Of a stretch of DNA of 64,000 nucleotides, positions 36,782 through 53,737 are shown in pieces. Position numbers and translations under genes: made by a program. The stretch comes from Sphingomonas sanguinis (GTDB lineage Bacteria > Pseudomonadota > Alphaproteobacteria > Sphingomonadales > Sphingomonadaceae): assembly GCF_019297835.1 (NCBI RefSeq), contig NZ_CP079203.1:3972001-4036000 (forward strand), given 5' to 3'. Position 1 is the stretch's first letter, and the number at the start of each line of letters is the position of its first letter. The notes under the pieces were generated by a model. That model was not told the DNA's origin, searched no databases, and saw only the letters and a list, made by a program, of their open reading frames with translations.

Positions 36782-37752
36782 GGAAGTTCGATCGAGGACC
36801 CCGCGCCATCGGGACCGTCGCTGCGTTCCGCGAGCAGGCTGACGGCCGCCGCCGCCATCTCGCTATTGGGTTGTCGGATCGTCGTCAGCTGTGGCCAGGC
36901 CATGCGGGCCAGCTGGGCATCGTCGAACCCCGCAATGGCCAGTTTCTGGGGTACGGCGATCTGTGCCCGCATCGCCGCCACCAGCACGCCCAGCGCCATC
37001 TCGTCGTTGCTCGCGAAGATGGCGCTGGGTGGGCGCGCGCCCTGAAGCAGAGCCTCGGCCGCGACGATGCCGGAGCGGAAGGTGAAGTCGCCCTGAAAAA
37101 CCTGGCGCTCGTCGAGCGTCATATCGGCGGCTTTCAAGGCGTCCTGAAAGCCGAGCCAACGGCGATGGGCGGAATGATGGGTGGGATTGCCCTTGATGAA
37201 GGCGATGTCGCGGTGGCCGAGCCGGATCAGATGCTCGGTCATGGTGCGTGCCGCCGCGCGGTCGTCGATCCTGACATGGGGGGTGCGATCGACATCGCTA
37301 CCCGGCGCGATCCGGACCAGGGGTACACCATGCCGCTCGAAAATGGCGATCAGTTCCTCGCAATCGCAGATCGGCGGCGTCAGGATCGCGCCGCCCAGTT
37401 TCAACCCGACAAGGCTTTCCTCCAGCCGTGCCTGCCAATCCGGCAGGTGGAGCGCCACGGTTTCGATGACGACGTGGCGGCCCAGCGATCGCGCGCGGTC
37501 GAGCGCACCGAGCAGCACGTCATTGGCATAGCTGCAGGCCGGATCGTCGAAGAACAGGCCGATCAGAAAGGAGCGCGCGCTCGACAGGCTGCGGGCAAAG
37601 GCGTTGGGCTGGTAGTTCATCTCCGCCACGACGCGCGCCACGGCGTCGCGTACGGCCGGGCGGACATGCGCTTCACCGTTGATGACGCGGGAAACGGTCT
37701 TGGGAGAAACGCCGGCCTGTCGGGCCACGTCCTTGATAGTGAGCGCCTTCAT
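36742..37752 (-). CDS. LacI-family repressor of sugar locus 1
   Basis: 336 residues from ATG 37752 (MKALTIKDVARQAGVSPKTV). The helix-turn-helix with hinge helix is at about 1-60 (YQPNAFARSLSSARS), then a periplasmic-binding-like effector domain (about 62-330; IFASNDEMALGVL, IAGFDDAQLARMAWPQLTTI). Putative operators with central CG lie before the divergent GH3 gene (37919-37932) and before the TonB receptor gene (40360-40373). The effector is probably a beta-glucoside or glucose, by inference from the neighbours. The 28 extra residues of the longer frame precede the family start and are dropped. Confidence 0.9.
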   Translation of the reverse strand: MKALTIKDVARQAGVSPKTVSRVINGEAHVRPAVRDAVARVVAEMNYQPNAFARSLSSARSFLIGLFFDDPACSYANDVLLGALDRARSLGRHVVIETVALHLPDWQARLEESLVGLKLGGAILTPPICDCEELIAIFERHGVPLVRIAPGSDVDRTPHVRIDDRAAARTMTEHLIRLGHRDIAFIKGNPTHHSAHRRWLGFQDALKAADMTLDERQVFQGDFTFRSGIVAAEALLQGARPPSAIFASNDEMALGVLVAAMRAQIAVPQKLAIAGFDDAQLARMAWPQLTTIRQPNSEMAAAAVSLLAERSDGPDGAGSSIELPYELMVRASSFGA

Positions 37753-37918
37753 GAAACATCCGGTCGAAAGACAAAGAGCGGCCTGGCGGATCGGCCACGC
37801 CGGTGAGGTGCGCCGCATCACGCAAAAGCGTCCCACACGCCGTCGCCTTTTGCAATCGGGTGCAGGGCTTCTTGCAGAGCGTAGGGGCCGCTGAAAAGGG
37901 TAGTAGCCGATTGATCGT

Positions 37919-37932
37919 TGACATCGTTGTCA
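37919..37932. promoter_or_regulatory. LacI-type operator upstream of the GH3 gene
   Basis: TGACATCGTTGTCA, arms TGACA/TGTCA around a central CG, the layout of LacI-family operators. It lies 131 bases before the GH3 ATG and 166 bases before the LacI ATG, inside the 311-base divergent gap 37753-38063. A further half-site GACAACG follows at 37941. Confidence 0.65.
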
Positions 37933-38063
37933 GTCATGCCGACAACGGTCGTCGAAAACGGGAAGATCGGGAGAGGATCATCACGTCGGCGATGCGCGTC
38001 GCGCATGTTCACGTGGCCCATGCGCCTCGATTCGGTTTCCCAACCCCTGTTCGGAGCGCCGCC

Positions 38064-40325
38064 ATGTCCTATCGTCACGCCCTTATCGTCGCGCTTCTTG
38101 CGGGGGCCGCGCCGGTCGCCGTGTCGGCGCAGCAGGCTCCGTCGCAGCCGCAGGCGACAGAGGGCGCATGGCGGGACAAGGGTGCTCCGGCGGTCGACCG
38201 CGCCCGCGCTCTGGTCAAGGCGATGACCCGCGACGAGAAGCTGGCCTATGTCCACGGCCTGTTCCCGCCGATGACCAAGGAACGCCATGCCGACATGATC
38301 CCGTCGGCCGGCTATGTCCCAGGCGTGCCGCGCCTGGGCATTCCGACGCTGCGGGAGAGCGACGCGAGCCTGGGCGTCGCCAATCAGGTCGAACAGCGCA
38401 AGGGCGACACCGCGACCGCCTTGCCGTCCAGCCTGGCGACGGCGGCCAGTTTCGATCCCGCCATTGCCTATGCCGGAGGCGCGATGATCGGGGCGGAGGC
38501 GCGCGCCAAGACCTTCAACGTGCTACTGGCAGGCGGCGTCAATCTGACGCGCGATGCATGGAACGGGCGGAACTTCGAATATCTGGGGGAAGACCCGCTG
38601 CTGGCCGGGATCATGGCGGGCGCGTCGATCCGCGGTGTCGAGTCCCGGCATATCGTGTCGACGGTCAAGCATTATGCCCTGAACGCGCAGGAAACCGGGC
38701 GCAACATCCTGGACGCGCGCATCGACGAGAAGGCGCTGCGCGAAAGCGATCTACTCGCCTTCAAGATCGCCATCGACGGGGGACGCCCGGGATCGGTCAT
38801 GTGCGCCTATAACAAGGTCAATGGCGACTATTCGTGCGAGAACCGCTTCCTGCTGACGCAGGTCCTGCGCGACGAATGGCGCTATCCGGGCTTCGTCATG
38901 AGCGACTGGGGTGGTGTCCATTCGACCGAGAAGGCGGCGCTGGCGGGGCTGGACCAGGAATCCGGGCAGGAACTCGACAAGCAGATCTATTTCGGCAAAC
39001 CGCTGGCCGATGCGATCGCGAGCGGTCGCGTGCCCGAGGCGCGGCTGGATGAGATGGTCACGCGCATCCTGACCGGCGTCATCGCCAGCGGGCTGTACGA
39101 CGATCCGACGCCAGCGACCGCGCAGGCCATCGACTATGCCGCCCATGCCGATGTCGCGCAGCACGCGGCAGAATCCGGCATCGTGCTGTTGAAGAACGAC
39201 CGCGATGTCCTGCCGCTGGCCGCGACGGCGCGGCGGATCGTGCTGATCGGCGGCCATGCCGATGTCGGCGTATTGTCCGGCGGCGGATCGAGCCAGGTTC
39301 GCTCGGTCGGGGGTGCGCCGATCGAAATTCCGCTGACCAAGGGTGCTGCGGCCTCGTTCGCGCGGATCACCTATCACGCCTCCTCGCCGCTGCGGGCGAT
39401 GCAGGCACTGGCCCCCGGTGCGCAGGTCAGCTTCGTCGACGGGCGCGATCCCGTGGCTGCGGCAGCGGCGGCCAAGGCGGCCGATATCGCGATCGTGTTC
39501 GCGACCCAATGGCAGACCGAAGCGCAGGATGCGGTCTCGCTGTCGCTGCCCGATAACCAGGACGCGCTGATCGCGGCGGTCGCCAAGGCCAATCCACGCA
39601 GCGTCGTAGTACTTGAGACGGGCGGGCCGGTCCTGATGCCTTGGGCGGATCAGGTCGCAGGCATCGTCCAGGCTTGGTATCCGGGCCAACGCGGCGGCGA
39701 GGCGATCGCCCGCGTCCTGTTCGGCAAGGTCGACGCCTCGGGCCGTCTGCCGATCAGCTTTCCGGTCAGCGCCGCGCAACTGCCCCGGCCGAAGCCGGTG
39801 CTGCCCGCTGGCGTGACCGCGCTGACCGATGCGTCCAGCAACGCGGGCGTCGTTGATACGGGCGATCTTGCCCCGTTCCCGGTCGACTATTCGGAGGGAA
39901 GCAATGTCGGGTACCGCTGGTACGCCGCGCGCGGCGACCGGCCGCTTTATCCGTTCGGCTATGGCCTCAGCTATACGCGCTTCCGCTTCGGCACCGCCCG
40001 GTTCACGGGCGGTGCGGCTCCGGCCGTGGAGGTCGCCGTGACCAATATCGGCAAGCGCCAGGGCGTGGTCGTGCCGCAGCTCTATCTGACGGGCACGGGG
40101 CAGGGTCCCATGCGCCTGGCGGGGTTCCAGCGGGTTTCACTGGCGCCGGGCGAGACGAAGACACTGGCGATCCCCGTCGATCCCCGGATTCTCGCGCGGT
40201 GGACGGCAGGCCGTGGTTGGGCGGTCGCGCCGGGCCGTTATCGTCTGACGCTCGCCACCGATGCGCAGAGCCCCGTCGCGAATGGCGAGGTAAGTGTGGC
40301 GGCGGAAGCACAGTCGCCCGGTTGA
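38064..40325 (+). CDS. GH3 family beta-glucosidase, exported
   Basis: 753 residues from ATG 38064 (GGAG seven bases before). Signal peptide MSYRHALIVALLAGAAPVAVSA/QQ, so periplasmic or beyond. The GH3 N-terminal TIM barrel is at about 45-340, with substrate-binding KHY (VSTVKHYALNAQETGRN) and nucleophile Asp281 in GFVMSDWGGVHST; the C-terminal alpha/beta domain and a fibronectin III-like domain (about 660-745, VAVTNIGKRQGVVVPQLYL) follow. It hydrolyses terminal beta-linked glucose or similar sugars. Divergent from the LacI gene, with an operator between, and followed by the TonB receptor gene. Confidence 0.92.
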   Translation: MSYRHALIVALLAGAAPVAVSAQQAPSQPQATEGAWRDKGAPAVDRARALVKAMTRDEKLAYVHGLFPPMTKERHADMIPSAGYVPGVPRLGIPTLRESDASLGVANQVEQRKGDTATALPSSLATAASFDPAIAYAGGAMIGAEARAKTFNVLLAGGVNLTRDAWNGRNFEYLGEDPLLAGIMAGASIRGVESRHIVSTVKHYALNAQETGRNILDARIDEKALRESDLLAFKIAIDGGRPGSVMCAYNKVNGDYSCENRFLLTQVLRDEWRYPGFVMSDWGGVHSTEKAALAGLDQESGQELDKQIYFGKPLADAIASGRVPEARLDEMVTRILTGVIASGLYDDPTPATAQAIDYAAHADVAQHAAESGIVLLKNDRDVLPLAATARRIVLIGGHADVGVLSGGGSSQVRSVGGAPIEIPLTKGAAASFARITYHASSPLRAMQALAPGAQVSFVDGRDPVAAAAAAKAADIAIVFATQWQTEAQDAVSLSLPDNQDALIAAVAKANPRSVVVLETGGPVLMPWADQVAGIVQAWYPGQRGGEAIARVLFGKVDASGRLPISFPVSAAQLPRPKPVLPAGVTALTDASSNAGVVDTGDLAPFPVDYSEGSNVGYRWYAARGDRPLYPFGYGLSYTRFRFGTARFTGGAAPAVEVAVTNIGKRQGVVVPQLYLTGTGQGPMRLAGFQRVSLAPGETKTLAIPVDPRILARWTAGRGWAVAPGRYRLTLATDAQSPVANGEVSVAAEAQSPG

Positions 40326-40336: not shown

Positions 40337-40359
40337 CCGTGCCTTCACGGCATTTTGAT

Positions 40360-40373
40360 TGACACCGATGTCG
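40360..40373. promoter_or_regulatory. LacI-type operator upstream of the TonB receptor gene
   Basis: TGACACCGATGTCG, differing at three of 14 positions from the site at 37919 and keeping the central CG. It lies 90 bases before the receptor ATG, a usual operator position. Confidence 0.6.
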
Positions 40374-40463
40374 GTCGGTATAGCTATGAACAATAAAGAA
40401 AATAATTAGCCGAATTCATCGGCAAACAAGCGGCGCAAAAATAGCCGCAATGGGAGAGGTGGG

Positions 40464-43400
40464 ATGAAAGGGAAGACGCTTGCGCGCGTGCTCGTGCGCT
40501 CGACATCGGTGCTAAGCCTGACGGCGGGCTTGTTGCTGGCCTCGCAGGGGCAGGCGCAGACCGCACCGATCGACCCGCAACAGGGCACGCCCCAGGCGGA
40601 CACCAGCAGCCAGACACCCCCGCCGGGCGAAGCAAGCCCCACCAACCCCCAGCCCGAAACCACGCCCGACGATATCGTCGTCACCGGTGTCCGCGCCTCG
40701 CTGGAGCGCTCGATCGCCATCAAGCGCGACTCGAACGGTGTCGTCGATGCGATCAGCGCGGAGGATATCGGCAAGTTCGCCAACACCAACCTCGCCGAGT
40801 CGTTGCAGCGCATCACCGGCGTTTCGATCGACCGGCGCAACGGTGAGGGTTCGACCGTCACGGTCCGCGGCTTCGGCGCGCAGTACAACCTCGTCACGCT
40901 CAACGGCCGCCAGCTGGCGACGTCCAATATCGTCGCGGTCGGCGGCGACCAGGGTGGTGACGGCGCGGGGGGCTTCGGCCGCTCGTTCGACTTCTCCAAC
41001 CTCGCCTCGGAAGGGGTGAAGACACTGGAGGTCTACAAGACCGGGCGCGCCGCGATCCCCTCGGGCGGTATCGGCGCGACGGTCAACGTGGTCAGCCGCC
41101 GCCCGCTCGACAATGCCGAAACCGGGCTGGTCGGGTCGCTGGGCGTCAAGGGCAGCTATGACAACAGCTCGGCCGACTGCATCGACTGCGGCGCGCGCGT
41201 CACGCCCGAGGCGTCTGGCACCGCCAGCTGGACGGACAGCGAGAAGCGCGTCGGCGTGTCGCTGTTCGGCAGCTATCAGAAGCGCAATTTCAGCTTCGCG
41301 AGCGTCGCGCCGGACAACTGGAATATCCGCTCGCTCAACGATTTCCTGAACCCGTCCAACGGTTTCGTGAACGGGGCGACCAAGATCAACAACCGCCCGA
41401 CCGGCAACCCGCTGGTGTCGGTCCCCAACGACTTCCGCTATCACTTCTCCGAGGCCAGCCGCGAGCGGATCAACGGCCAGGCGATCCTGCAATTCCGCCC
41501 GACCGACACGCTGACCTTCACCGCCGACGGCCTTTATGCCCAGCTGCGTCAGTCGGAGCGCCGGTCGAGCCAGTCCAACTGGTTCAACCGCCCCTTCAGC
41601 GAGGTGACGTTCGACGACGCCAGCAACGGCATCGCCACCACCCAATTCCTGGCCGAGACGATCAACGGCGTGAAGGACGCGGCGTACGAACAGGCCTATC
41701 GCGCGCAGAAGAACCGGCTCTACGATGTCGGCGGCAATATCGAATGGAAGCCAAGCGACCGTTTCACCCTGTCGATCGACGGCCATATCGGCGAGGCGCA
41801 GAGCCTGCCCGACAATCCCAACGGCCAGACATCGACCACCGTCGCGATCAACGCGCCGGTCGTGACCGGCCATACGCTGCGCTGGACCGATAACGGCTTC
41901 CCGCAGCAGACTCTGGCGATCAACGACGGGACGCAGAGCACGACCCCGACCGGCCAGCCCTTCATCAAGGGCAACAATAACGGCGTGCTGGACGTCGGCG
42001 ATCTGGCGAGCGCGGTGCAGCGCCAATTCGCCTCGAACCAGACGCAGCGGATCCGCGAGCTGCGCGCCGATGCGGCCTGGGACTTCACCGACCAGATCCG
42101 GTTCGATGCCGGTGCCGATTATCGCACCACCACGACCCGCCAGACCCAGTTCAACACGCGCCAGGTGCTGGGCGACTGGGGCAACTCGCTGCCGCCCGAT
42201 ATCGCGCGGCTGGCACCGGGGCAGGTTTTCCAGTTCTGCAACACCTGCAAGTTCGAGCATAACAACCCGAACGCCGATCCGAACACCCAGATCGCCTTCC
42301 GCACCGAAGACGCGACCAAGCTCTACAACACGCTGTTCAACTATTATTCCGGCGTGACCAACGACGGCGTCGACCATCGCAACAATATCGACGCGAACAG
42401 CGACAATTCGGTGCGCGAGAATATCTGGTCGGGCTATCTCCAGGGCAGCTGGAACGGGCAGGTGTTCGGCCGCAACGCGCAAGTCGTGGCGGGCCTGCGC
42501 TACGAAAATACCAAGGTGCGCGCGGTGTCGCTGCAACCCGTGCCGCTGGCGATCGTGTGGACGGCGGACAACGACTTCGTGATCCAGAACAGCACCGACC
42601 AGCAGGCGATCTCGGCGCGCGGCTCCTATAGCAACTGGCTGCCCGCCGTGGACGCCAAGATCGAGGTTCTGGACAATCTGTTCGCCCGCGCCTCGTACAG
42701 CAAGACCATCTCGCGCGCGCCTTACGGCAACCTGTTCGCCTCGACCGGTGTCGGTGCGCCGGGGCGGCCGACCGCGATCGGCGGCATCGCGACGGGCTCG
42801 TCCAACAATACCGGCCTGTTGCCGCTGTCGTCGGACAATATCGACCTGTCGGTCGAATGGTATCCGCGCAAGGACGTCTTCCTGTCGGCGGGCTTCTTCG
42901 ACAAGCGGGTGCACAACTTCATCGGCAACACGGTGGTGAACCGCAACCTGTTCGGCTTGCGCGACGCGACGTCGGGGCAGGCGGGCACCCGATCGGGCAC
43001 GGCCCGCCAGCAGCTGACCAACACGTTCGGGGCGGACATCACCGACGTCAACCTGTTCACCTATACCGCGCTGCTCCAGCAGAATAACGGCAATGTCGCG
43101 GCGGCGAACGCGCAGTTTGCGGCCAATTACAACACGCAGAGCCGCGCGCTGAACCAGGGGTTCGTCGACTCGATCCTCAGCCAGGTCGACATCAGTCCGA
43201 ATGCCAGCGATCCGCTGTTCAACTTCGCGGTGAACACGCCGATCAACAACCGCGACGCGCATATCTACGGCGTCGAGTTGGCAGGTCAGTATTTCCTGGG
43301 CGAGACCGGCTTCGGCATTGCGGCCAGCTATACGCTCGTTCGCGGTAATATCGGCATCGACATCGCGGCCGATCCCAGCGTGAACACCTTTGCGCTGGTC

Positions 43401-43715
43401 GGCCTGTCGGATACCGCCAACGCCACGCTGATCTATGACAAGAACGGCATTTCGATGCGCCTGTCCTACAACTGGCGCGACAAGTTCCTGAGCGACATCA
43501 ACCGTGGCGGCGACCGCAATCCGGTCTTCACCGCGCCCTATGGCCAGCTAGACCTCTCCATGAGCTTCGACCTGACGCCGCGCTTCGCGCTCGGCTTCGA
43601 GGCGATCAACCTGACCGAGGAGGGCGTCCAGACCTATGGCCGCGACCGGATGAACACCTGGTATCTGGCCGAAGGCTCCGCCCGCTATCTGATCGGCGCG
43701 CGGTATCGCTTCTGA
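40464..43715 (+). CDS. TonB-dependent receptor of sugar locus 1 (TIGR01782-like)
   Basis: 1083 residues; GGAGAGG before ATG. Signal peptide about 1-32 (LLLASQGQAQ/TA), a Pro/Gln/Thr linker, TonB box DDIVVTG at about 69-75, plug about 85-200 (SAEDIGKFANTNLAESLQRI, STVTVRGFGAQYNLVTLNGR), then a barrel to the terminal ARYRF. Two nearby cysteine pairs (DCIDCGA; FCNTCKF) are unusual for a barrel loop. It heads the unit receptor-SapC-cupin-halogenase and probably imports a glycoside or a ligand acted on by those enzymes. Confidence 0.93.
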   Translation: MKGKTLARVLVRSTSVLSLTAGLLLASQGQAQTAPIDPQQGTPQADTSSQTPPPGEASPTNPQPETTPDDIVVTGVRASLERSIAIKRDSNGVVDAISAEDIGKFANTNLAESLQRITGVSIDRRNGEGSTVTVRGFGAQYNLVTLNGRQLATSNIVAVGGDQGGDGAGGFGRSFDFSNLASEGVKTLEVYKTGRAAIPSGGIGATVNVVSRRPLDNAETGLVGSLGVKGSYDNSSADCIDCGARVTPEASGTASWTDSEKRVGVSLFGSYQKRNFSFASVAPDNWNIRSLNDFLNPSNGFVNGATKINNRPTGNPLVSVPNDFRYHFSEASRERINGQAILQFRPTDTLTFTADGLYAQLRQSERRSSQSNWFNRPFSEVTFDDASNGIATTQFLAETINGVKDAAYEQAYRAQKNRLYDVGGNIEWKPSDRFTLSIDGHIGEAQSLPDNPNGQTSTTVAINAPVVTGHTLRWTDNGFPQQTLAINDGTQSTTPTGQPFIKGNNNGVLDVGDLASAVQRQFASNQTQRIRELRADAAWDFTDQIRFDAGADYRTTTTRQTQFNTRQVLGDWGNSLPPDIARLAPGQVFQFCNTCKFEHNNPNADPNTQIAFRTEDATKLYNTLFNYYSGVTNDGVDHRNNIDANSDNSVRENIWSGYLQGSWNGQVFGRNAQVVAGLRYENTKVRAVSLQPVPLAIVWTADNDFVIQNSTDQQAISARGSYSNWLPAVDAKIEVLDNLFARASYSKTISRAPYGNLFASTGVGAPGRPTAIGGIATGSSNNTGLLPLSSDNIDLSVEWYPRKDVFLSAGFFDKRVHNFIGNTVVNRNLFGLRDATSGQAGTRSGTARQQLTNTFGADITDVNLFTYTALLQQNNGNVAAANAQFAANYNTQSRALNQGFVDSILSQVDISPNASDPLFNFAVNTPINNRDAHIYGVELAGQYFLGETGFGIAASYTLVRGNIGIDIAADPSVNTFALVGLSDTANATLIYDKNGISMRLSYNWRDKFLSDINRGGDRNPVFTAPYGQLDLSMSFDLTPRFALGFEAINLTEEGVQTYGRDRMNTWYLAEGSARYLIGARYRF

Positions 43716-43726
43716 TTGTGGAAACT

Positions 43727-43758
43727 CGGAAGGCCGCTGTCCCCCCCGCGGCCTTCCG
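43727..43758. terminator. Intercistronic hairpin between receptor and SapC genes
   Basis: A perfect 11-base stem CGGAAGGCCGC/GCGGCCTTCCG with a ten-base C-rich loop, 12 bases after the receptor stop and 16 before the SapC ATG. Without a T-run it probably tunes or protects the receptor message instead of fully ending the operon. Confidence 0.6.
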
Positions 43759-43774
43759 GGTACATGGGGCGATC

Positions 43775-44479
43775 ATGGCCGCACCTGTCCTGCTCAACAA
43801 TATCGACCATCGCGACCTTCGGGTCGCGATCGGTCATCACGCGCGCTTCGGCGATGCGATCAACCAGACCCGTGTGTTCCCGGCGGAGTTCGAGGAGCTT
43901 CAGCGCGAATACGCCATATTGCTGCGGCGGGACGAAGCCGGGGCGCTCTATGCGACCGTCCTGCTGGGCCTCGACCCGGACGAGAACCTGTACCTGACGG
44001 GCGACCGATGGGACGCCCGCTACATCCCGGCGACCCGAGCGCGCGGGCCGTTTTCGATCGGTCACGACGCCACGGGCGAGCCCATGGTCTTCATCGACCC
44101 CGAGCATCCGCGACTGACCGCCGATGGCATGCCCGTCTTTCGCGAACATGGCGGCAACGCGCCGCTGCTCGACCATGTCACGGTGATGCTGCAACGCATT
44201 TATGAGGGCGTGCAGACCGAAAAGGCCATGTACGAGGCCTGGGCCGCGCTCGACCTGCTGACGCCCGCCGTCCTGCAACTCGATCTGGACGAGGGGCGGC
44301 GGTACAATGTGCCGGATTGCCTGACGATCGACACGGCCCGGCTGGCGGCGCTGGAGGCCGGTGCCCTGGGCGATCTCCATGCGCGCGACTATCTGCGCCC
44401 GGCGTTCTGGATCGCGTCCTCGCTGGGCAATCTGCGCCATCTGATCGACCGCAAGCTGAGCCGGGATGCGCATGGCTGA
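43775..44479 (+). CDS. SapC-family protein
   Basis: 234 residues from ATG 43775. The SapC-family start VLLNNIDHRDLRVAIGHHARFGDAINQ and the block FPAEFEELQREYAILLRR are characteristic. Soluble, with no signal peptide. The biochemical role is not established; the family is named after a gene in a bacterial S-layer/peptide-resistance context, and members recur beside TonB receptors and tryptophan halogenases in sphingomonads, caulobacters and xanthomonads. Overlaps the cupin gene by 14 bases (or eight, depending on the cupin start). Confidence 0.85.
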   Translation: MAAPVLLNNIDHRDLRVAIGHHARFGDAINQTRVFPAEFEELQREYAILLRRDEAGALYATVLLGLDPDENLYLTGDRWDARYIPATRARGPFSIGHDATGEPMVFIDPEHPRLTADGMPVFREHGGNAPLLDHVTVMLQRIYEGVQTEKAMYEAWAALDLLTPAVLQLDLDEGRRYNVPDCLTIDTARLAALEAGALGDLHARDYLRPAFWIASSLGNLRHLIDRKLSRDAHG

Positions 44480-45509
44480 CCGGTTGCCCGCCGCGCGTCA
44501 TGCCCGCGAGCTGACGGAAACGGGGGCGCCCGATCTGGCGGCGCTCATCGAAGATAACGAGCCGGTCGTGCTGCGGGGCTATGCCGCGCACTGGCCGTTG
44601 GTCCGGGCAGGACAGGTTTCCGCCCGTGCGGCCGCCGATTATCTCCTACGCTTCGATCGTGGGCGACCGGTGACCGGCTATGTGGGGGACGCGGCGATAG
44701 GCGGGCGTTTTCACTATGACGAAACCGCCACCGGACTGAATTTCCGGACGGAGACGCTGCCGTTGCGCGAATTCCTGGCGCGGCTGCTGGACGGAGCCGA
44801 CGGGCCGGGGGAGCCGCCTGCGCTCTATATGGGGTCGACTGATCTCGACGCCTATCTGCCGGGTTTTCGCGGCGAGAACGATCTGGTGCCGTCCAACGGG
44901 CTGTTCGACCGTCACCCGCCGCTGGCCAGTATCTGGATCGGCAACCGGACCATCGCCTCGGCGCATTACGACATGGCGAACAACGCCGCCATCTGCGCCG
45001 TCGGTCGGCGCCGCTTCACGCTGTTTCCCCCCGATCAGATCGGCAATCTCTATCCCGGTCCGCTCGCCCCGACGCCGGGCGGGCAAGTGGTCAGCATGGT
45101 CGACTTCGCCAAGCCCGACCTCGATCGCTATCCCCGTTTTGCCGATGCCATGGATCAGGCGGTGGTGGCCGAACTCGAACCCGGTGACGTGCTGGTCTAT
45201 CCGGCGCTGTGGTGGCACCATGTCGAGGCGCTGGAGGCGTTCAACATCCTCGTCAATTATTGGTGGAACGCAACGCCCGACTATCTCGACACGCCGATGG
45301 ATAGCGTGATGCATGCGATGCTGTCGCTGCGCGATCGACCGGCTGCGGAGAAGCGGGCCTGGCGGGCGGTCTTCGACCATTATATCTTTGGCGACGGCGA
45401 AGCGGTCGTCGGCCATCTGCCGCCTGCGTCGCACGGGCCGCTCGCGCCGCTCGACGAGGCCATGGCGCGGCGGCTACGCGCCTATCTTCTGCAAAGGCTG
45501 AACCGATGA
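44466..45509 (+). CDS. Cupin-like (JmjC-type) iron/2-oxoglutarate oxygenase
   Basis: 347 residues (ATG 44466; 44472 also possible). A cupin_8/JmjC-like fold: the iron-binding HxD is His167-Asp169 in SAHYDMANNAAICAVG, with the second His in LVYPALWWHHVEAL (about 251). Between them RRRFTLFPPDQIGNLYPGPL is the family's hallmark. Likely a hydroxylase of a protein side chain or small molecule. Its stop overlaps the halogenase start by four bases (ATGA), and the upstream overlap is with SapC, so the three are tightly coupled. The substrate is unknown. Confidence 0.87.
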   Translation: MRMADRLPAARHARELTETGAPDLAALIEDNEPVVLRGYAAHWPLVRAGQVSARAAADYLLRFDRGRPVTGYVGDAAIGGRFHYDETATGLNFRTETLPLREFLARLLDGADGPGEPPALYMGSTDLDAYLPGFRGENDLVPSNGLFDRHPPLASIWIGNRTIASAHYDMANNAAICAVGRRRFTLFPPDQIGNLYPGPLAPTPGGQVVSMVDFAKPDLDRYPRFADAMDQAVVAELEPGDVLVYPALWWHHVEALEAFNILVNYWWNATPDYLDTPMDSVMHAMLSLRDRPAAEKRAWRAVFDHYIFGDGEAVVGHLPPASHGPLAPLDEAMARRLRAYLLQRLNR

Positions 45510-47020
45510 GCGATCCCTATCCGCCTACCCGCGTCGTCATCGCCGGGGGCGGGACGGCGGGGTGGCTCGCGGCAACGGCGCTGGTGCGGCAACTGGGGCC
45601 GCTGGTCGACGTCACGCTGATCGAATCCGACGAGATTGGTACGGTCGGCGTCGGCGAGTCCACCATCCCCACGGCGCGCAGCTTCCATGCCTTTCTAGGG
45701 ATCGACGAAGCCGAATTCATGAAGGCGACCCAGGCGACCTTCAAGTTGGGCATCGCGTTCGAGAATTGGGGGCCGGAGGGCGCGCGCTATTTCCATCCGT
45801 TCGGAACGGTCGGACGATCGGTGGCGATCGCCGATTTCCAGCATTTCTGGCTGGAGGCGAAGCGCCACGGCTTCGGCGGGGCCTATACCGACTATTCCCT
45901 TGAGACGCGGGCGGCCGAGGCGAGCCGGTTCGGGCGGGACGAGGCTGGCACCCTGGCCTATGCCTATCATCTCGATGCCACGGCCTATGCCCGCTTCCTG
46001 CGCGGTATTGCCGAACCGGCCGGAGTGCGCCGGGTCGAGGGGCGCATCGCCAAGGTCGAGCGGGACGGCGAGGGCGGCGACATCGCCGCATTGCATCTGG
46101 CATCGGGCAACCGGATCGAGGGGGATCTGTTCCTCGACTGCACCGGCTTTCGGGCGTTGCTGATCGAGGGTGCGCTGGAGACGGGCTTCGAGGATTGGAG
46201 TGAATGGCTGGCCTGCGACCGGGCGTTGGCGGTCCAGACCGAAGCCGTCTCCTCCCCGGTCCCCTATACCCGCGCCATCGCGCACTGGGCGGGCTGGCGC
46301 TGGCGCATCCCGCTTCAGACGCGGGTGGGCAACGGGCTGGTCTATTCCTCGGCCGACATGAGCGAGGACGAGGCGACCGCAACGTTGCTGGCGGGGATCG
46401 AGGGAGCGCCGCTATTCGAGCCGCGCGCCCTGCAATTCCGCGCGGGGATGCGTCGGCAGGCCTGGAGCGCCAATTGCGTGGCGCTGGGTCTCGCGGCCGG
46501 GTTCATCGAGCCGCTGGAATCGACCAGCATCCATCTGGTCATGATCGCGGTGATGCGCCTGATCCAGGGTTTTCCGTTCCAGGGCGATGATCGCGCGGCC
46601 CCCCGATCGCGCTTCAATGCCCAGTCGCGTCATGAGTGGGAGCATATCCGCGACTTCATCATCCTGCATTATGGGCAGACCGGGCGGACGGACTCGGCGT
46701 TCTGGCAACGGCGCTCGACGATGTCGGTGCCCGAGACGCTGGCGGAACGCGTGGCACTGTTCACCCAGAGCGCAGGCGCCTGGCAGGGACAGGACGACCT
46801 GTTCAAGATCGATTCCTGGGTTTCGGTCATGCTGGGGCAGGGGCTTATGCCCAAAGCCCATCACCGCATTCCGGCGATGCTCAGTCCCCAAGCGCTGCGC
46901 GATTCCCTCGATGCCTTGGACCAGCAGCTTTTACGACAATTGCAGCTGATCCCGGACCACCTCGCCTTCATCAACCGATATTGCGCGACGAAGGCTCAGA
47001 CGCAGGTCATGTCAGCGTAA
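45506..47020 (+). CDS. Flavin-dependent tryptophan/indole halogenase
   Basis: 504 residues. FAD-binding GGGTAGW (about 14-20); the catalytic Lys80 (FKLGIAFENW), the halogenase signature WxWxIP at 264-269 (GWRWRIPLQTRVGNG) and the catalytic Glu338 (FIEPLESTSIHLV) all match the PrnA-type enzymes. It would make hypohalous acid from FADH2, O2 and halide, then a lysine-bound halogenating species. No flavin reductase is nearby. Proteins of this operon type often prefer indoles in vitro and their natural substrates are unknown. 3' end overlaps the convergent GH3 gene by 14 bases. Confidence 0.92.
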   Translation: MSDPYPPTRVVIAGGGTAGWLAATALVRQLGPLVDVTLIESDEIGTVGVGESTIPTARSFHAFLGIDEAEFMKATQATFKLGIAFENWGPEGARYFHPFGTVGRSVAIADFQHFWLEAKRHGFGGAYTDYSLETRAAEASRFGRDEAGTLAYAYHLDATAYARFLRGIAEPAGVRRVEGRIAKVERDGEGGDIAALHLASGNRIEGDLFLDCTGFRALLIEGALETGFEDWSEWLACDRALAVQTEAVSSPVPYTRAIAHWAGWRWRIPLQTRVGNGLVYSSADMSEDEATATLLAGIEGAPLFEPRALQFRAGMRRQAWSANCVALGLAAGFIEPLESTSIHLVMIAVMRLIQGFPFQGDDRAAPRSRFNAQSRHEWEHIRDFIILHYGQTGRTDSAFWQRRSTMSVPETLAERVALFTQSAGAWQGQDDLFKIDSWVSVMLGQGLMPKAHHRIPAMLSPQALRDSLDALDQQLLRQLQLIPDHLAFINRYCATKAQTQVMSA

Positions 47021-49262
47021 ACGTGCCCGCAAGGCCTTCGGCCTCCGCCGATGGCGCGACCCAAAGGCGGAAGGCACCGGGTTCGGTGGTCGGCGTCAGC
47101 TCGCGGCCGATAAAGGACAGGTCGGCGCGGGTGAGGGTGAAGCTCACCTCCTGACGCGCACCCGGAGCCAGGGTGACGCGGGTGAAGGCCTTCAGCACCC
47201 GCACCGGCTGGGTGACGCTGGCGACGACGTCGTGGATATAGAGCTGGACGACTTCGGTCGCTGCCATGCGCCCGGTATTGGTGATGGTCGCGCGGATCGT
47301 CAGCGGGGTGTCGCCCAGCGTCTTGCTGCTCAGGCGAAGGTCCGAATAGACCATCTCGCCATAGGTCAGGCCATGGCCGAACGGAAACAACGCACTGTTC
47401 GGATAGTCGCGGAAATGCGCCTTATAGGGCTGTAGCGCCCCGGGCGGATTGGGGCGGCCCGTGTTGCGATGCGCGTAATAATAGGGGACCTGCCCGCTGG
47501 CCCGTGGGAAGGACACCGGCAGCCGCGCGGAGGGAGACATTGTGCCGAACAACACATCGGCGATGGCCGGGCCGTCCTGCGAGCCGAGGAACCATGTCAC
47601 TAGCAAGCCGGGTGCTTTGGCCACCGCGCCGCTCAGCGCGAGGGCCCGCCCGGTGCGCAGCAGTACGACATAGGGCTTGCCGGTCGCGGCGATCGCCTCG
47701 GCAAGGGCCTGTTGCTCTGCGGGCACGACGATCTCGGTACGCGACTGCGCCTCGCCCGACATATTCTGGGTTTCGCCGATCGCGAGCACGACGATATCGG
47801 CGGCGCGCGCCGCGGCGACCGCGCGCGCCAGGTTGCTGCCGTCGTCCATGGTCGCGTCGGGCACGGTTTCACGTACTGCGGTGACGAGGTCCACCGCCTC
47901 GCGATCGGTGCCATAGACATTCCATGGTCCGATCAGGTCATGCCCGCCGCCCGCGAATGGCCCGATCAGCGCGATCCTCGTTCCCGAGCGGGGCAGGGGG
48001 AGCAGGTCGCCCTCGTTGCGGAGCATGACGATGCTGCGCGCACCCGCCTCGCGCGCAAGGACGAGTGTCTCCGGCGTGCGCAGCCGCGCCTTTTCGCGCG
48101 CCGGGTCGATGCGGCGAAAGGGATCGTCGAACAGCCCGAGCGCGACCTTCAGCGCCAACACGCGTCGCACCGCCTCGTCGAGGCGTGCCAGTGGCACCTC
48201 GCCCTTTTCGACCAGATCGGGAAGATATTTGAGATACAGCCCGCTTTGCATCGACATGTCGACGCCCGCGAGAAAGGCAAGGCGCGCCGCATCGCGGCCG
48301 TCCTTGGCGAACCCATGCGCGATCAGTTCCTCGTCGCCCGTATAGTCGGAGACGACCAGCCCGCCAAAGCCCCATTCCTTGCGCAGGACCGTGTCGAGCA
48401 GCCATGGATTCCCGGTCGCGGGGATTCCGGAAAGGTCGTTGAACGACGCCATCACGGTCGGCGCGCCCGCCGCGAACGCCGCCTGAAAGGGCGGGAAATA
48501 GATGTCGCGCAGCGTCCGCTCCGACACATCGACGCTGTTATAGTCCAGCCCGGCCTCGCCCGCGCCATAGGCGACGAAATGCTTGGCGCAGGCCGCGACG
48601 GCGTCCGGCGCGGCAAGCCCGCTGCCTTGGAAACCCTCGACGCGCGCCGCCGCCATCACGCGACCGAGCAGCACGTCCTCGCCCGATCCCTCGACACCCC
48701 GGCCCCAGCGGGCGTCGCGCGCGATGTCGACCATCGGCGCGAAGGTCCAGTCGATCCCCGAGGCCGACGCCTCCACCGCCGCCGCGCGCGCCGTGCGCCG
48801 CGCCAGATCGGGGTCGAAGCTCGCGGCTTCGGCGAGCGGGACCGGGAAGACGGTGCGCAGGCCGTGGATGACGTCGGCGGCGAACAGCAGCGGGATTTTC
48901 AGCCGCGAGCGGCGCACCGCTTCGATCTGCATCCGCCGCGCCATCTCCGCGCCATTGCCGTTGAAGACGCCGGTCAGCTCACCCCGGCGAACCATCCGCA
49001 ACTGTGCATCGAAGCTCGACGCCGCGCCCGCCGGGTTCAGCGAGATGGCAGCACCCCCGGCCCAGGCGGCGGCCAGCAGATTGAGCTGCCCTGCCTTTTC
49101 GACGAGCGTCATGCGCGAGATCAGCGCCTCGACGGACGCGGGAAGCGGGCGTTCGCCTGTAATGGCGAGCAGCGCCCGCGCCGGGCTGGCCGACCATGCC
49201 AGCGCCGCACCCGCACCCGCCAGCCACGCACGCCGCGATATCCGCCGATCCTGACCGTTCAT
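47007..49262 (-). CDS. GH3 family beta-glucosidase (BglX-like), Tat-exported
   Basis: 751 residues from ATG 49262 (AAGGGAGCAGG before it). A Tat signal is present: RRISRRAWLAGAGAALAWSA (about 6-25), so it is exported folded, unlike the Sec-exported GH3 of locus 1. GH3 barrel with KHFVAYGAGEAG, nucleophile Asp306 in GGLVVSDYTGDEE; C-terminal domain about 395-590 and a fibronectin III-like domain about 650-745 (TITNTGRMAATEVVQLYI). Divergent from the LacI gene of locus 2, with LacI-type operators between. Probably removes glucose from oligosaccharides made by the GH144 enzyme. Confidence 0.92.
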   Translation of the reverse strand: MNGQDRRISRRAWLAGAGAALAWSASPARALLAITGERPLPASVEALISRMTLVEKAGQLNLLAAAWAGGAAISLNPAGAASSFDAQLRMVRRGELTGVFNGNGAEMARRMQIEAVRRSRLKIPLLFAADVIHGLRTVFPVPLAEAASFDPDLARRTARAAAVEASASGIDWTFAPMVDIARDARWGRGVEGSGEDVLLGRVMAAARVEGFQGSGLAAPDAVAACAKHFVAYGAGEAGLDYNSVDVSERTLRDIYFPPFQAAFAAGAPTVMASFNDLSGIPATGNPWLLDTVLRKEWGFGGLVVSDYTGDEELIAHGFAKDGRDAARLAFLAGVDMSMQSGLYLKYLPDLVEKGEVPLARLDEAVRRVLALKVALGLFDDPFRRIDPAREKARLRTPETLVLAREAGARSIVMLRNEGDLLPLPRSGTRIALIGPFAGGGHDLIGPWNVYGTDREAVDLVTAVRETVPDATMDDGSNLARAVAAARAADIVVLAIGETQNMSGEAQSRTEIVVPAEQQALAEAIAATGKPYVVLLRTGRALALSGAVAKAPGLLVTWFLGSQDGPAIADVLFGTMSPSARLPVSFPRASGQVPYYYAHRNTGRPNPPGALQPYKAHFRDYPNSALFPFGHGLTYGEMVYSDLRLSSKTLGDTPLTIRATITNTGRMAATEVVQLYIHDVVASVTQPVRVLKAFTRVTLAPGARQEVSFTLTRADLSFIGRELTPTTEPGAFRLWVAPSAEAEGLAGTFTLT

Positions 49263-49414
49263 CCTGCTCCCTTTCGTCTTCATGACGCGTCATCTACGCC
49301 GTGGCCGGGAAGTCGATCCGGGTTCCTGCTTCCCCTCACCGCGATGGCTGCGGCCGGCAGGAAACAGGACCCTGGATCCCATTCCAGGCGATGGTCGGGA
49401 CCGCGCTCAGCTGA

Positions 49415-49434
49415 ACAATCAGCCGATTGATTGT
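49415..49434. promoter_or_regulatory. Palindrome in the divergent GH3/LacI promoter
   Basis: ACAATCA and TGATTGT pair across six bases. It could be a second operator class for the GH3 promoter (minus strand); no second regulator is identified. Confidence 0.35.
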
Positions 49435-49448
49435 CATTCCTGGTTCAT

Positions 49449-49474
49449 GTAAGCGGTTTCTGTAAGCGGTTACA
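49449..49474. promoter_or_regulatory. Tandem LacI-type operators of sugar locus 2
   Basis: TGTAAGCGGTTTCT at 49449 and TGTAAGCGGTTACA at 49461, the second a near-palindrome with central CG. They are 34-59 bases upstream of the LacI ATG, fit for autorepression, and within the promoter of the divergent GH3 gene. Confidence 0.65.
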
Positions 49475-49507
49475 AGCCCGCGAAACAGAGAGGATGCTTC
49501 GTCGACC

Positions 49508-50572
49508 ATGTCGTCCGACCGACCCGATTCGGTTGCTGCCGCCGTCCCGGCGGCGCGCGGCGCGCATGCGACGATCCATGACGTCGCGCGCGTGGCGGGT
49601 GTCTCGGTCGCGTCGGTATCGCGGGTATTCAACGGGCGCGACCATGTTCGTGCCGAGATGCGTGCGCGGGTGGAGGAGGCGGCGGCGCAGCTCGGCTATG
49701 TCCCCCATGCGGGGGCGCGCAGCCTCAGCATGGCGCGGACCGGCGCGATCGGTGTGGTCCTGCCCGACCTGCACGGCGAATTCTATTCGGAACTGCTGCG
49801 CGGCATGGACCGTGAGGCGAGTATGCGCGGATTGGGGCTGCTGCTCACCGTGCTCCACGAGGGGCGCGGGGTCGACACCCTGGCGGCGCTTCGCGGACAG
49901 GTCGACGGGCTGGTGGTGATGGCGCCGGAACTCGATCCGGCCGTCCTGGCCCGGCATATGCCGCGCGGCCCGGCGGCCGTGTTCCTGGCGTGCGCGCCGC
50001 AGGACGGCAGTCTCAATTTGCGTATCGATAACCATGGCGGAGCCGCCTCTGCGGTCGCGCATCTGGCGGCGGGCGGGGCGAAGCGGATCGTCCATATCTC
50101 CGGCCCCGCAAGCAATTTCGATGCGCAGCAACGACGCGCTGGCGCGGAGGCGGCGGCATCGGCGGCGGGTGTGGCGCTGAGCGTGATCGAGGGTGATTTT
50201 CACGAGGCCAGCGGGACCATGGTCGGCGAACGCGTCGCGGCGGGAACGCTGCACGCCGATGCGATCTTCGCGGCCAACGACATGATGGCGATCGGCGCGC
50301 TGATGGCGCTGAAGCGCCGTAATATCGCGGTGCCGGAGCAGGTGGCGGTCGCCGGGTTCGACGACATTCCGCTGGCCCGGCTGGTCAGCCCCGCGCTGAC
50401 CAGCGTCGCGGTCGACATCGCGGCGATGGGTGCACGCGCGGTGGCGCATCTTGCCGAGCAGATCGCAGCCAAGCGCGAACGGCCTTTGGAAGGCCGAGGG
50501 ACCACGGCGGACGAGGTGATCGTGCCGCATCTGATGGTGCGTGAAACAACAAGAGAAACCGACAGGGGATAG
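49508..50572 (+). CDS. LacI-family regulator of sugar locus 2
   Basis: 354 residues. A helix-turn-helix at about 22-48 (ATIHDVARVAGVSVASVSRV) follows an N-terminal extension of some 20 residues (SSDRPDSVAAAVPAARGAH), longer than usual. The effector domain is about 78-345 (IFAANDMMAIGAL, VAGFDDIPLARLVSPALTSV). It precedes the TonB receptor with only four bases between stop and ATG, and is divergent from the Tat GH3. Probable targets are both sides through the 49449-49474 sites. The inducer is presumably a beta-glucan oligosaccharide (inference). Confidence 0.9.
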   Translation: MSSDRPDSVAAAVPAARGAHATIHDVARVAGVSVASVSRVFNGRDHVRAEMRARVEEAAAQLGYVPHAGARSLSMARTGAIGVVLPDLHGEFYSELLRGMDREASMRGLGLLLTVLHEGRGVDTLAALRGQVDGLVVMAPELDPAVLARHMPRGPAAVFLACAPQDGSLNLRIDNHGGAASAVAHLAAGGAKRIVHISGPASNFDAQQRRAGAEAAASAAGVALSVIEGDFHEASGTMVGERVAAGTLHADAIFAANDMMAIGALMALKRRNIAVPEQVAVAGFDDIPLARLVSPALTSVAVDIAAMGARAVAHLAEQIAAKRERPLEGRGTTADEVIVPHLMVRETTRETDRG

Positions 50573-50576
50573 GGTT

Positions 50577-53500
50577 ATGAAGAGGAACGCATTCAGGCTG
50601 GCGCTCGCGGGCGCGACGATGCTGGCGGGGCTGGGAACCGCGACGATGTGGAGCGCGCCCGCCGCGGCGCAGGCCGGTCAGGCGGCGCTGCGCGGCGTGA
50701 TCCGCAGCGCGCCCGACAATCCCGTTCAGGACGTGACCCTGATCGAGGTCGATACCGGCTTCCGTCGTACCGTCGTGCCCGGCGCGGACGGCAGCTACAA
50801 CTTCCCGTCGCTGCGGGCAGGGGCGTACCGGCTGGAGATCCGCCTCAAGCAGGGCACGCGCAATTCCGATCAGTTCACGCTTCGCGTCGGGCAGAATGCC
50901 GGGCTGGACCTCGACCTGACCACCCCCCCGGCGCCGGCACAGCCCGCGCCGGGCGACAACACCGCCGGTGAGACCGCGCCGCCCCCCGCCGAAGCGCAGC
51001 AGGGCGACATCATCGTCACCGGCAGCCGCATCCGCTCGCTGTCCGGCGGGCAGGTCGGCATCAACATCACGCCGCGACTGATCGAGCAGCTGCCGCAGAA
51101 CAGCCGCAACTTCCTGGCCTTCGCCGATCTCGCGCCCGGTGTGCGTTTCATCGAAAGCTCGGACGGCAGCTCGCGCATCCAGGGCGGTGCGCAAGGGAGC
51201 AACTCGGTCAACGTCTTCATCGACGGCGTCAGCCAGAAGGATTACGTGCTACGCGGCGGCCTGACCGGCCAGGACAGCTCGCCCGGCAACCCGTTCCCGC
51301 AGCTCGCAATCGGCGAGTATCAGGTGCTGTCGTCCAACTACAAGGCGGAGCTGGACCAGGTCAGCTCGGTCGCGATCATCGCGGGCACCAAGTCGGGCAC
51401 CAACGAATTCCATGGCGAGGGCTTCTTCGACTTCACCAATCAGAATTTGCGCGACCGTCGCCCGACCGAAATCTATCCCGCCAAGATCGCCAAGATCCCC
51501 TCGGAGGACAAGCAGTTCGGCGTCGCGCTGGGCGGCCCGATCGTCAAGGACGTCGCGCATTTCTTCGTCAGCTATGAGGGCAAGCGGCGGCAGGTGCCGA
51601 TCGACATCCTGCCGACCAACGGCGTCGCGGTGTCGAGCCTGCCCGCCCAGTATCGCGACATTTTCGGGTCGTTCAACTCTAGCTTCCGCCAGGACCTGTA
51701 TTTCGGCAAGATCGACCTCGAGCCGACCGACAAGGACCTGGTCGAACTGACCGGCAAATATCGCAACGAGACCGGCGTGCAGATCGGCAACGGCAATGCC
51801 GCCTTCTCCACCCGCACGCTGAGCAAGGTGAACGAGAAGCGCGGCATGCTGCGCTGGCAGCATACCGAGGATCAGTGGATCAACGACGTGCGCGTCTCTT
51901 ATGAGGATGTCGCCTGGTCGCCGCAGCCCGCCGAGAACGGCATCGGCCAGCAGTTCCGCACCACGACACGCAACGGCAGCAGCGTGTCGACCTTCGACCT
52001 GTTCCGCACCGGCGCTGGGCTGGGCTTCCAGGACAAGGGGCAGCGGGGCTGGACCGTCCAGGACGATTTCACCTGGACCGGGGTCGAGAACCACACGTTC
52101 AAGGTCGGCGCGAAGGCGAAATGGGTGACGCTCAACTCGCTGGAGCAGAACCTGATCAACCCGCTCTATCTCTATGACACCACCCTGCCCTCGGCGAGCG
52201 GGTTCAACGACCAGATCCCGTATAGCCTGCAATTCGGCGCGAACGGGAGTCTCGGCGATCCGCGCATCCGCTCGAAGAACTTCCAGCTGGGCCTATATGC
52301 GCAGGACGACTGGGACGTGACCGACCGGCTGACGCTGAACCTCGGCCTGCGCTGGGATTATGAGCGGACCCCGGCGTTCCTGAACTATGTCACCTCCGCC
52401 GAGAACATCAACGCGGTGTCGCCCGCCAATTATCCGAACCTGGTCAACGCGGATTACAAGATCGGCGACTATATCTCGACCGGCAGCAATCGGAAGGCGT
52501 TCAAGGGCGCATGGCAGCCGCGCGTCGGCTTCACCTATCGCCTGGACGAGCAGGGCCGGTTCGCGGTGTTCGGCGGCTATGGCCGGTCCTACGATCGCAA
52601 CCAGTTCGACTTCCTGCAGCAGGAACTGGCCAATGGCCGCTTCCAGCGCCGCGAGTTCCTGTTCCAGGGTGCCGACACGATCAATCCGTGCACGCCCGGA
52701 CCGAACTGCATTCCCTGGAACCCGATCTACCTGACCGATGCCGGTCGCCAGCAGCTGATCGGCAATGGCAGCCCGGGCGGGCGCGAGTTCCGCTTCATCA
52801 ACAACGATCTGAAGGTCCCCTATTCGGACCAGTTCAGCCTGGGCGTGCGCGGGCGGTTCAACCCGGTCGAGCTGGAAGTCGGCTATACCCGGATCGTCAG
52901 CAAGGACGGCTTCGTCTATTTGCTCGGTACGCGCCGCCCCGACGGGTCGTTCTTCGCGCCGTCGCCGACCACCGGCGCGCCGCAGGGGCCGAACACCAGC
53001 TTCGCGCCCAGCGGCTACGGCGCGATCATCCTGGGCGACAACGGGCTCGAGACGCGCGCGGACTCGGCCTATGCCAAGCTGACCAAGGCCTATTCGGCCG
53101 CCTCGCCGTGGAGCATCGACGCCACCTATACCTTTACCGCGGCGGTGGATAACCGGCCGAACAACGACCAGTCGTCCTACTTCCTGCTCGATTTCCCGAA
53201 GGCGTCGGATTACCCGATGCTGCGCTCGGGCGTGGTGCCGCGTCACCGCTTCGTGGTGGCGGGCAGCGTCGACACGCCGCTGGGCGTGACGATGTCGGCG
53301 AAGTTCCAGATCGAGAGCCCGACCTTCCAGCGCGCGTTGCTCGACACGTCGAACCCGTATCAGCGGACGCTGGTCGGCTCGGAAGTGTTCGGGCTGGGCG
53401 ATCGCTGGGGCCGTCGCCAGCTCGACCTGGCGTTCACCAAATATGTGCCGCTCAAGTTCATCAGCGACGCGACGCGCATCCGCTTCCGCGTCGACATCAT

Positions 53501-53660: not shown

Positions 53661-53669
53661 TGCCTGATC

Positions 53670-53698
53670 GTCATCCCGGCCTTGTGCCGGGATGACGG
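53670..53698. repeat. REP-like palindrome CGTCATCCCGGC
   Basis: Twelve-base arms CGTCATCCCGGC/GCCGGGATGACG with a five-base loop, nine bases after the receptor stop. It may attenuate transcription between receptor and lipoprotein genes. Related to 8817-8844. Confidence 0.65.
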
Positions 53699-53737
53699 CC
53701 TGACCGGCAGCAGAGACGGTTGAAATGACAGGAGAGG

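Follow-up and report, generated by a model that had tools for sequence, protein, structure and literature searches.

We analyzed a stretch of 64,000 nucleotides from contig NZ_CP079203.1 of Sphingomonas sanguinis (hereafter the window; the host genome is 4.37 Mb), in which four intact genes, all on the + strand, join a TonB-dependent receptor to a flavin-dependent halogenase. The receptor gene (40464 to 43715, 1083 aa) was identified with Pfam and with the NCBIfam model TIGR01782 (TonB-Xanth-Caul). Behind it stand a gene for a SapC-family protein (43775 to 44479, with the ATG at 43775 a likelier start than the alternative GTG at 43718), a gene for a JmjC/Cupin_8 protein resembling Fe(II)/2-oxoglutarate hydroxylases (44466 to 45509; the cupin in what follows), and a gene for a halogenase of the BrvH/Xcc4156 type (45506 to 47020). 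The SapC and cupin genes overlap by 14 bp and the cupin and halogenase genes by 4 bp, while a gap of 59 bases separates the receptor from the SapC ATG. A preliminary description had reported this tight, overlapping order. The open reading frames (ORFs) and their overlaps confirmed it; all four products scored above their Pfam cut-offs, and the receptor also above that of TIGR01782. With overlapping genes and a single 59-base gap, the operon has no room for a precursor-peptide gene; small ORFs outside the operon were not searched.

This locus is one instance of a widespread coupling of TonB glycan receptors with BrvH-type halogenases. Its gene order is conserved, and the halogenase (and SapC/cupin) pairs with particular receptor clades.

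Conservation of the gene order and receptor-halogenase linkage

With the window halogenase as the query, a scan of 84,980 species genomes returned 57 loci (L numbers below). The exact order receptor-SapC-cupin-halogenase was present in 21 of them (L022 to L040, L066, and L068), all from Sphingomonas, as are the nearest orthologous loci; contig ends truncate the L022 receptor and the L068 halogenase. Three loci from Parvularcula, Parvularculaceae, and Marinicaulis (L041, L071, and L076) had the order receptor-halogenase-SapC-cupin-halogenase, and a Kangiella locus (L077) had receptor-SapC-halogenase-halogenase. In 47 of the 57 loci a receptor turned up within 5 kb; some of the other 10 lie on contigs that break off close to the gene. 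The exact four-gene order also occurred in L273, L274, and L275, which come from two genomes of another class. Thus, the neighborhood survey that the preliminary description had proposed found the four genes to be co-conserved. The host genome itself contains 10 complete halogenase matches and a further one split into two pieces, along with 3 SapC genes, 3 Cupin_8 genes, and 21 TIGR01782 receptors above the cut-off. Six of these receptors stand immediately next to a halogenase.

We counted linkage in a sample of 40 genomes from the same taxonomic order. Up to 30 halogenase candidates (E up to 1e-30) and the 17 best receptor candidates were scored per genome, and four receptors from the host genome were added. 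Eighteen of the 40 genomes contained halogenases, for a total of 80 genes in 54 clusters. A TIGR01782 receptor lay within 5 kb of 40 of the 54 clusters, compared to 1.55 expected under uniform placement, which implies that the link between receptor and halogenase is not due to chance. In 35 clusters the distance was 1 kb or less. Six more clusters (L017, L191, L212, two in L183, and L186 at 4.5 kb) had another TonB receptor, confirmed by Pfam, within 5 kb, bringing the count for any TonB receptor to 46 of 54. A phylum sample of 150 genomes yielded 15 with halogenases, 10 of these outside the order, and here a TonB receptor lay within 5 kb of 16 of the 19 outside-order clusters (in L262 by Pfam). 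In the genomes sampled, most clusters of this halogenase family are thus neighbors of TonB receptors. A possible further partner, DUF6445 (PF20043), recurs near receptor-halogenase or halogenase-SapC loci, as in L018 (7924 to 8655, + strand) and also in L162, L163, L167, L174, L185, L265, L267, and L275.

Linkage on the receptor and halogenase trees

A receptor was called linked when a halogenase lay within 3 kb of it. After thinning at 75% identity, our receptor tree held 55 linked and 51 unlinked receptors (106 in all), and the window receptor was represented by its ortholog in L025. On this tree the linkage label needed 7 changes, compared to a mean of 35.6 with shuffled labels, and none of 500 shuffles was as low. 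The host genome and order sample alone (88 rows) needed 6 changes against about 28.5, and the addition of 16 receptors from outside the order gave 8 against 39. A further TIGR01782 receptor in the window (20445 to 23363, − strand), with no halogenase nearby, served as an unlinked control.

Four linked clades were recognized, and 3 linked rows fell outside them. Clade I (19 rows) has the halogenase and no cupin. Clade II (21 rows, 14 of them divergent) often has several halogenases, with the cupin in 9 rows. Clade III has 5 rows, 4 with SapC, and clade IV, which includes the window type, has SapC and the cupin in all 7 of its rows. We also built a tree of the nearest halogenases (52 rows), on which the receptor clades needed 5 changes, with 3 as the minimum possible; shuffles averaged about 25, and the lowest of 500 was 19. 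Receptors from outside the order followed the same division in part. All four from loci with SapC and the cupin were nearest to clade IV, and for the other 12 the nearest clade was I in 7 cases, II in one, and IV in one (L270). Taken together, linkage is a property of receptor clades, and the halogenase subfamilies match those clades. A distance-based mirror-tree comparison was tried and set aside (r of 0.32 overall, null maximum of 0.13, but 0.16 when pooled within genomes), and the clade-label trees were used instead.

The halogenase and its known relatives

The window halogenase matched Trp_halogenase (PF04820) with 604.5 bits against a cut-off of 21. It retains K80, E338, S339, and the WxWxIP motif (264 to 269: W264, W266, I268, and P269), and so it is complete, as had been described. 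Among solved structures its nearest relatives were Xcc4156 (6y1w, 547 bits), 9luq (511 bits), and BrvH (6frl, 417 bits). The alignment with 6y1w has no gaps over residues 110 to 211 and 416 to 498 of the window protein, which span both substrate-loop regions. According to the accessible text of the Xcc4156 paper, these loops are short in Xcc4156 and BrvH, and the substrate site of Xcc4156 is open and might accept peptides (PMC7336383). The window enzyme is thus predicted to have short substrate loops and an open active site as well.

Xcc4156 and BrvH share the catalytic Lys/Glu and WxWxIP with the window halogenase. In the accessible portions of the two papers, both enzymes are inactive on free tryptophan, and the authors propose peptides or larger substrates, with a peptide substrate as for MibH as one model (PMC7336383, PMC5945002). 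The natural substrate was left open there, and the word TonB is absent from both main texts. Halogenases of this family are paired with a TonB receptor in Brevundimonas/Caulobacteraceae loci as well (L058, L059, and L061).

Two groups of enzymes that act on tryptophan in polypeptides offer a comparison. MibH and SrpI are flavin halogenases that act on Trp of a ribosomal peptide (PMC12615548, accessible part). Halogenases of ribosomally synthesized and posttranslationally modified peptides need a precursor peptide, whereas our operon offers no gap beyond the 59 bases after the receptor, and Xcc4156 does not cluster near MibH in the accessible text of PMC7336383. QhpG and LodB are flavoproteins that act on protein tryptophan. 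The window halogenase matched the NCBIfam models of both far below their cut-offs (QhpG, 29.3 bits against 240; LodB, 21.5 bits against 400); a match to CmlS was slightly stronger and likewise below cut-off. From the part of PMC7876137 available, QhpG dihydroxylates tryptophan in a protein, resembles halogenases dependent on flavin adenine dinucleotide, and has a pocket for its protein substrate.

Across the family, the catalytic lysine is kept in 92 of 104 aligned halogenase segments. Copies in which it is changed to R, S, or H were found in L015 (8752 to 10575, − strand), L016 (11479 to 12879, − strand), L048 (13047 to 14645, − strand), L057 (8247 to 9977, + strand), L060 (8346 to 9977, + strand), L062 (2445 to 3950, + strand), and L063 (2748 to 4211, + strand). 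They sit between or beside other halogenase copies. Low-scoring copies occupy the same kind of place in G012, G132, G138, G147, G125, and G152. Such copies may be partner subunits.

The receptor, cupin, and SapC proteins

The receptor matched TIGR01782 with 611.8 bits (cut-off of 310) and contains the TonB barrel and Plug domains; it would be a TonB-driven glycan transporter.

The cupin matched Cupin_8 (PF13621) with 243 bits against a cut-off of 27.4. Its iron triad HxD...H is H167, D169, and H251, the last assigned by conservation. The closest solved relatives in sequence were FIH and JMJD5, and all 50 of the structural matches listed were to JMJD5, JMJD7, FIH, or TYW5. FIH, JMJD5, and JMJD7 hydroxylate protein side chains, while TYW5 acts on a tRNA base. 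FIH and JMJD5 are marked by a lysine that binds 2-oxoglutarate (Lys214 in FIH) and by a Thr (Thr196). In the cupin, Arg182 occupies the lysine position (Arg in 31 of 31 aligned sequences), and the residue at the Thr position is Ala, Val, or Ile. Because of these two differences, we class the cupin only as a JmjC relative.

SapC matched PF07277 with 190 bits (cut-off of 28.9) over the entire profile (1 to 220 of 220). An AlphaFold2 model was obtained with a predicted local distance difference test score of 92.9. No relative was found in the PDB by sequence or by fold, and a comparison with viral models gave no fold match, which does not prove a new fold. Inspection revealed no apparent signal peptide in SapC, the cupin, or the halogenase, and all three look cytoplasmic. 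A role in antiphage defense was considered for these three proteins and rejected, as no PADLOC family matched any of them at an E value of 0.001.

SapC has a life outside this operon. It was present in 22 of 115 alphaproteobacterial genomes, some under 2 Mb, and 19 of 20 SapC loci looked at elsewhere (from L079 to L121) showed no TonB receptor, cupin, or halogenase nearby, L120 being the exception. In these 20 loci, no conserved neighbor of solitary SapC was found beyond antisense ORFs.

Operator, hairpin, and glycan context

The sugar-locus neighbors named in the preliminary description were all present upstream by Pfam. They are a major facilitator superfamily (MFS) sugar transporter (35534 to 36781), a LacI-family regulator with LacI and Peripla_BP_3 domains (36742 to 37836, − strand) that is a candidate repressor of the operon, and a glycoside hydrolase family 3 (GH3) protein with N and C domains (37803 to 40325, + strand; this start is mechanical, and the true one may be downstream). 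NCBIfam GH3 models for arabinosidase, glucosidase, and xylosidase matched the last protein, every one below its cut-off.

A motif scan placed the operator-like palindrome TTGACACCGATGTCGG before the receptor, at 40359 to 40374 on the + strand. It matches the operator consensus perfectly and overlaps a TTGACA hexamer. A second operator-like site with 2 mismatches (37918 to 37933) lies just before the lacI start. Allowing up to 3 mismatches, we found 7 matches in the window (six places, one counted on both strands), compared to 1.3 expected. A like site precedes the receptor in all 20 orthologous loci compared (L022, with its cut receptor, was left out), in agreement with the LacI-like operator noted earlier. 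On these sequence features, the locus looks to be under LacI control.

A strong hairpin is predicted between the receptor stop codon and SapC (43724 to 43761, + strand), and one is predicted directly 3′ of the stop codon in the same 20 of 20 loci. When its covariation was examined, 83% of cells were paired, against 82% in shuffles. Having no T-run, the hairpin was also not recognized by terminator prediction, so it is no evidence that the genes after it are transcribed separately.

The TIGR01782 receptor, LacI regulator, MFS sugar transporter, and GH3 protein are what is found in TonB carbohydrate utilization (CUT) loci. The window locus adds to these the SapC-JmjC-halogenase module. In the accessible text of PMC1790865 on CUT loci there were 0 occurrences of halogenase, SapC, or tryptophan halogenase; PMC2996990 on Shewanella sugar regulons has no halogenase or SapC; and the words "receptor" and "SapC" are absent from the available part of PMC8269204. 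We found no description of receptor-halogenase coupling in the portion of the PMC literature searched, a collection that lacks most subscription papers.

The glycan genes beside linked receptors differ by clade. Around clade I, alpha-glucan genes prevail: among 39 neighbors, 8 carry alpha-amylase domains and 2 belong to GH97. The neighbors of clade II (34 scanned) include GH3, GH5, GH9, GH1, and GH10, and those of clade IV (33 scanned) include GH3, GH43, GH10, and GH115. These per-clade lists give the 25 most frequent of 45 families for clade I, 43 for clade II, and 47 for clade IV. Paralogues in the host genome adjoin GH9, GH31, GH115, an alpha-amylase, and a CE2-type esterase. Outside the order, near clade IV, GH3 and GH1 were present in L265 and GH3 in L273, while the few neighbors scanned in L274 and L275 included no glycan gene. 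MFS transporters were among the neighbors of clade IV (4 of 33) and clade I (7 of 39). One enzyme family thus sits in loci of alpha-glucan, cellulose, and xylan type, which makes a shared aromatic glycoside an unlikely substrate and disfavors the imported aryl-glycoside suggested earlier.

Directly downstream of the operon lies a second glycan locus (47007 to 55225) with a GH3 gene (− strand), a LacI gene, a SusC-like barrel (OMP_b-brl_4), and a putative glycoamylase (PF10091). Genes for an AcrB-type resistance-nodulation-division pump (29621 to 32842, − strand) and a sensor histidine kinase (32976 to 34262, − strand) adjoin the sugar locus of the operon.

Receptor residues as candidate targets

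We compared clade-specific positions, defined as conserved inside a group but rare elsewhere, in the four linked clades (64 rows) with those in eight unlinked groups of 3 to 5 rows. Tryptophan made up 10 of 109 such positions in the linked clades and 2 of 273 in the unlinked groups (Fisher 1e-4), a comparison weakened by the hand-picking of the unlinked groups, some of which are not true clades, and by the omission of 7 linked rows. Overall Trp content was 1.25% in linked (71 rows) and 1.02% in unlinked receptors (51 rows), counted on translations from stop to stop that include some residues before the true start. The content of Tyr, Phe, and His showed no difference. In the window receptor, the candidate tryptophans are W286, W373, W572, W699, and W1004. 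Among cupin-linked receptors, 20 of 21 had a Trp aligned with W1004, which lies in the motif N-W-R. The proportion was 16 of 50 for linked receptors lacking the cupin and 6 of 51 for the unlinked ones.

The dipeptide NW was considered as a joint Asn/Trp target. It is enriched in clades II and IV and present in 17 of 21 cupin-linked receptors (the exceptions are three with S or T before W and one without W), but it is also found in 15 of 50 linked receptors that lack the cupin, and it is a candidate only. A Trp test on nested subtrees (36 of 513 against 0 of 263) was discarded since nested sets are not independent. Candidates for a universal target, defined as columns conserved in the four linked clades and at 50% or less in unlinked receptors, were E202, V113, an aromatic residue at 210, Q51, and L997 (L025 numbering). 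None was convincing, with all five still at 45 to 49% in unlinked receptors.

Discussion

We believe it very likely that the operon is a functional module dedicated to its receptor, and halogenases of this kind probably work for the receptor and not in antibiotic synthesis. We infer a model in which the four genes are read as a single LacI-controlled transcript and allow a beta-glucoside/xylan-type glycan to be taken up, with the three that follow the receptor providing its oxidative tailoring. Cytoplasmic SapC would bind the newly made receptor polypeptide and present it to two enzymes, the JmjC hydroxylase and the flavin halogenase with its open site. These would hydroxylate and halogenate receptor side chains, with tryptophans such as W1004 as the best candidates, before the receptor is exported through Sec and assembled. 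The hairpin after the receptor could keep the enzymes scarce relative to it. We favor receptor tailoring, one of the options raised in the preliminary description, on indirect evidence: the halogenase has relatives with open sites, the cupin has relatives that hydroxylate proteins, and the linked clades have clade-specific tryptophans. The evidence suggests that the receptor is the best substrate candidate, short of proof. As a whole, a glycan uptake operon with its own tailoring module is a tentative proposal, with the balance somewhat against it. For the receptor polypeptide as the substrate, we would say possible rather than probable, and the specific route by which a SapC adaptor leads hydroxylase and halogenase to mark conserved tryptophans on outer-membrane glycan receptors before export is, in that detail, unlikely.

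Several observations weigh against receptor tailoring. We found no residue that all linked clades share and that unlinked receptors mostly lack. Clade I receptors, which have a halogenase and no cupin, show no Trp enrichment (1.06%). The Trp tests are post hoc and were made on related sequences, and the receptor tryptophans may instead stack on sugars. The enzymes look cytoplasmic, so any modification of the receptor would need to precede its export. Eight of the 54 order clusters had no TonB receptor within 5 kb among large ORFs (the second cluster of L167, L184, L185, L187 to L190, and L213; L189 is cut by a contig end), and none was found within 5 kb of 3 of the 19 outside-order clusters (L267, L276, and L277). 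On the receptor tree, L260 and L266, with a halogenase and then SapC, are nearest to an unlinked receptor and not to clade III, one L259 receptor is nearest to an unlinked row, and L270 falls near clade IV with SapC and no cupin. Within genomes, receptor and halogenase distances correlated poorly (r from −0.98 to 0.99 in 7 genomes), and the pooled r of 0.16 was reached in 157 of 2,000 permutations. Co-inheritance of linked genes alone yields matching trees. Given this and the poor correlation within genomes, the trees show a durable partnership, not chemistry.

Of the alternatives, the one that survives best is that the substrate of both halogenase and hydroxylase is a small aromatic compound entering with or through the receptor, such as a phenolic aglycone, a feruloyl group, or a plant indole glycoside, which they would detoxify or commit to catabolism. 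Relatives brominate free indole in vitro (PMC5945002, PMC7336383, accessible parts), the GH3 glycosidases of the window could release aglycones, and one clade II neighbor is a biopterin-dependent aromatic amino acid hydroxylase, which is possibly incidental. Apart from that hydroxylase, aromatic-catabolism families were not among the 25 most frequent per clade, which is weak evidence. We consider this alternative unlikely, as the halogenase family is also found in alpha-glucan loci, where no aromatic is expected, and BrvH is slow on indole, which its authors doubt to be the natural substrate in the text available (PMC5945002).

It is improbable, in our estimate, that the product of the module is a diffusible metabolite, halogenated or hydroxylated, which is released while the glycan is consumed and acts as a signal or weapon, with the receptor only coregulated. 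A secreted indole may be a substrate, as had been suggested, and BrvH forms 3-bromoindole (PMC5945002, accessible part). Control by an operator would tie production to the glycan, and the recurring MFS neighbors could export a product in principle, with sugar import the likelier role. Seven halogenase clusters in one genome with differing receptor clades are hard to reconcile with one signal, and receptor clade predicts the SapC-cupin cassette.

More improbable again is that these halogenase-fold enzymes are flavin monooxygenases or scaffolds, so that the true reaction hydroxylates a receptor-associated molecule and indole halogenation is a side activity. The members that have lost the catalytic lysine and were still kept would fit this, as would the hydroxylation of peptidyl Trp by the halogenase-like QhpG (PMC7876137, available part), but here, as in most members, the catalytic residues and WxWxIP are preserved. 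Finally, old operons can persist without direct interaction and no receptor was found close to some of the halogenase clusters, yet passive hitchhiking or chance is a negligible prospect given the excess over expectation, the recurrence outside the order, and the stability of linkage on the receptor tree.

Halogenases of the BrvH/Xcc4156 type have been crystallized and assayed without a natural substrate, and the clusters sampled here are mostly tied to TonB receptors of particular clades. The question thereby becomes one of receptor biology instead of natural products, and a short list of residues is at hand for mass spectrometry. SapC gains a confident model, one without a match among the solved structures searched. 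If the receptor is the substrate, this would be a new kind of membrane protein modification. The orphan BrvH/Xcc4156 halogenases would gain a natural substrate, and enzymatic protein halogenation would have a role in transport. If the receptor is not the substrate, the pairing still points to a ligand class to test.

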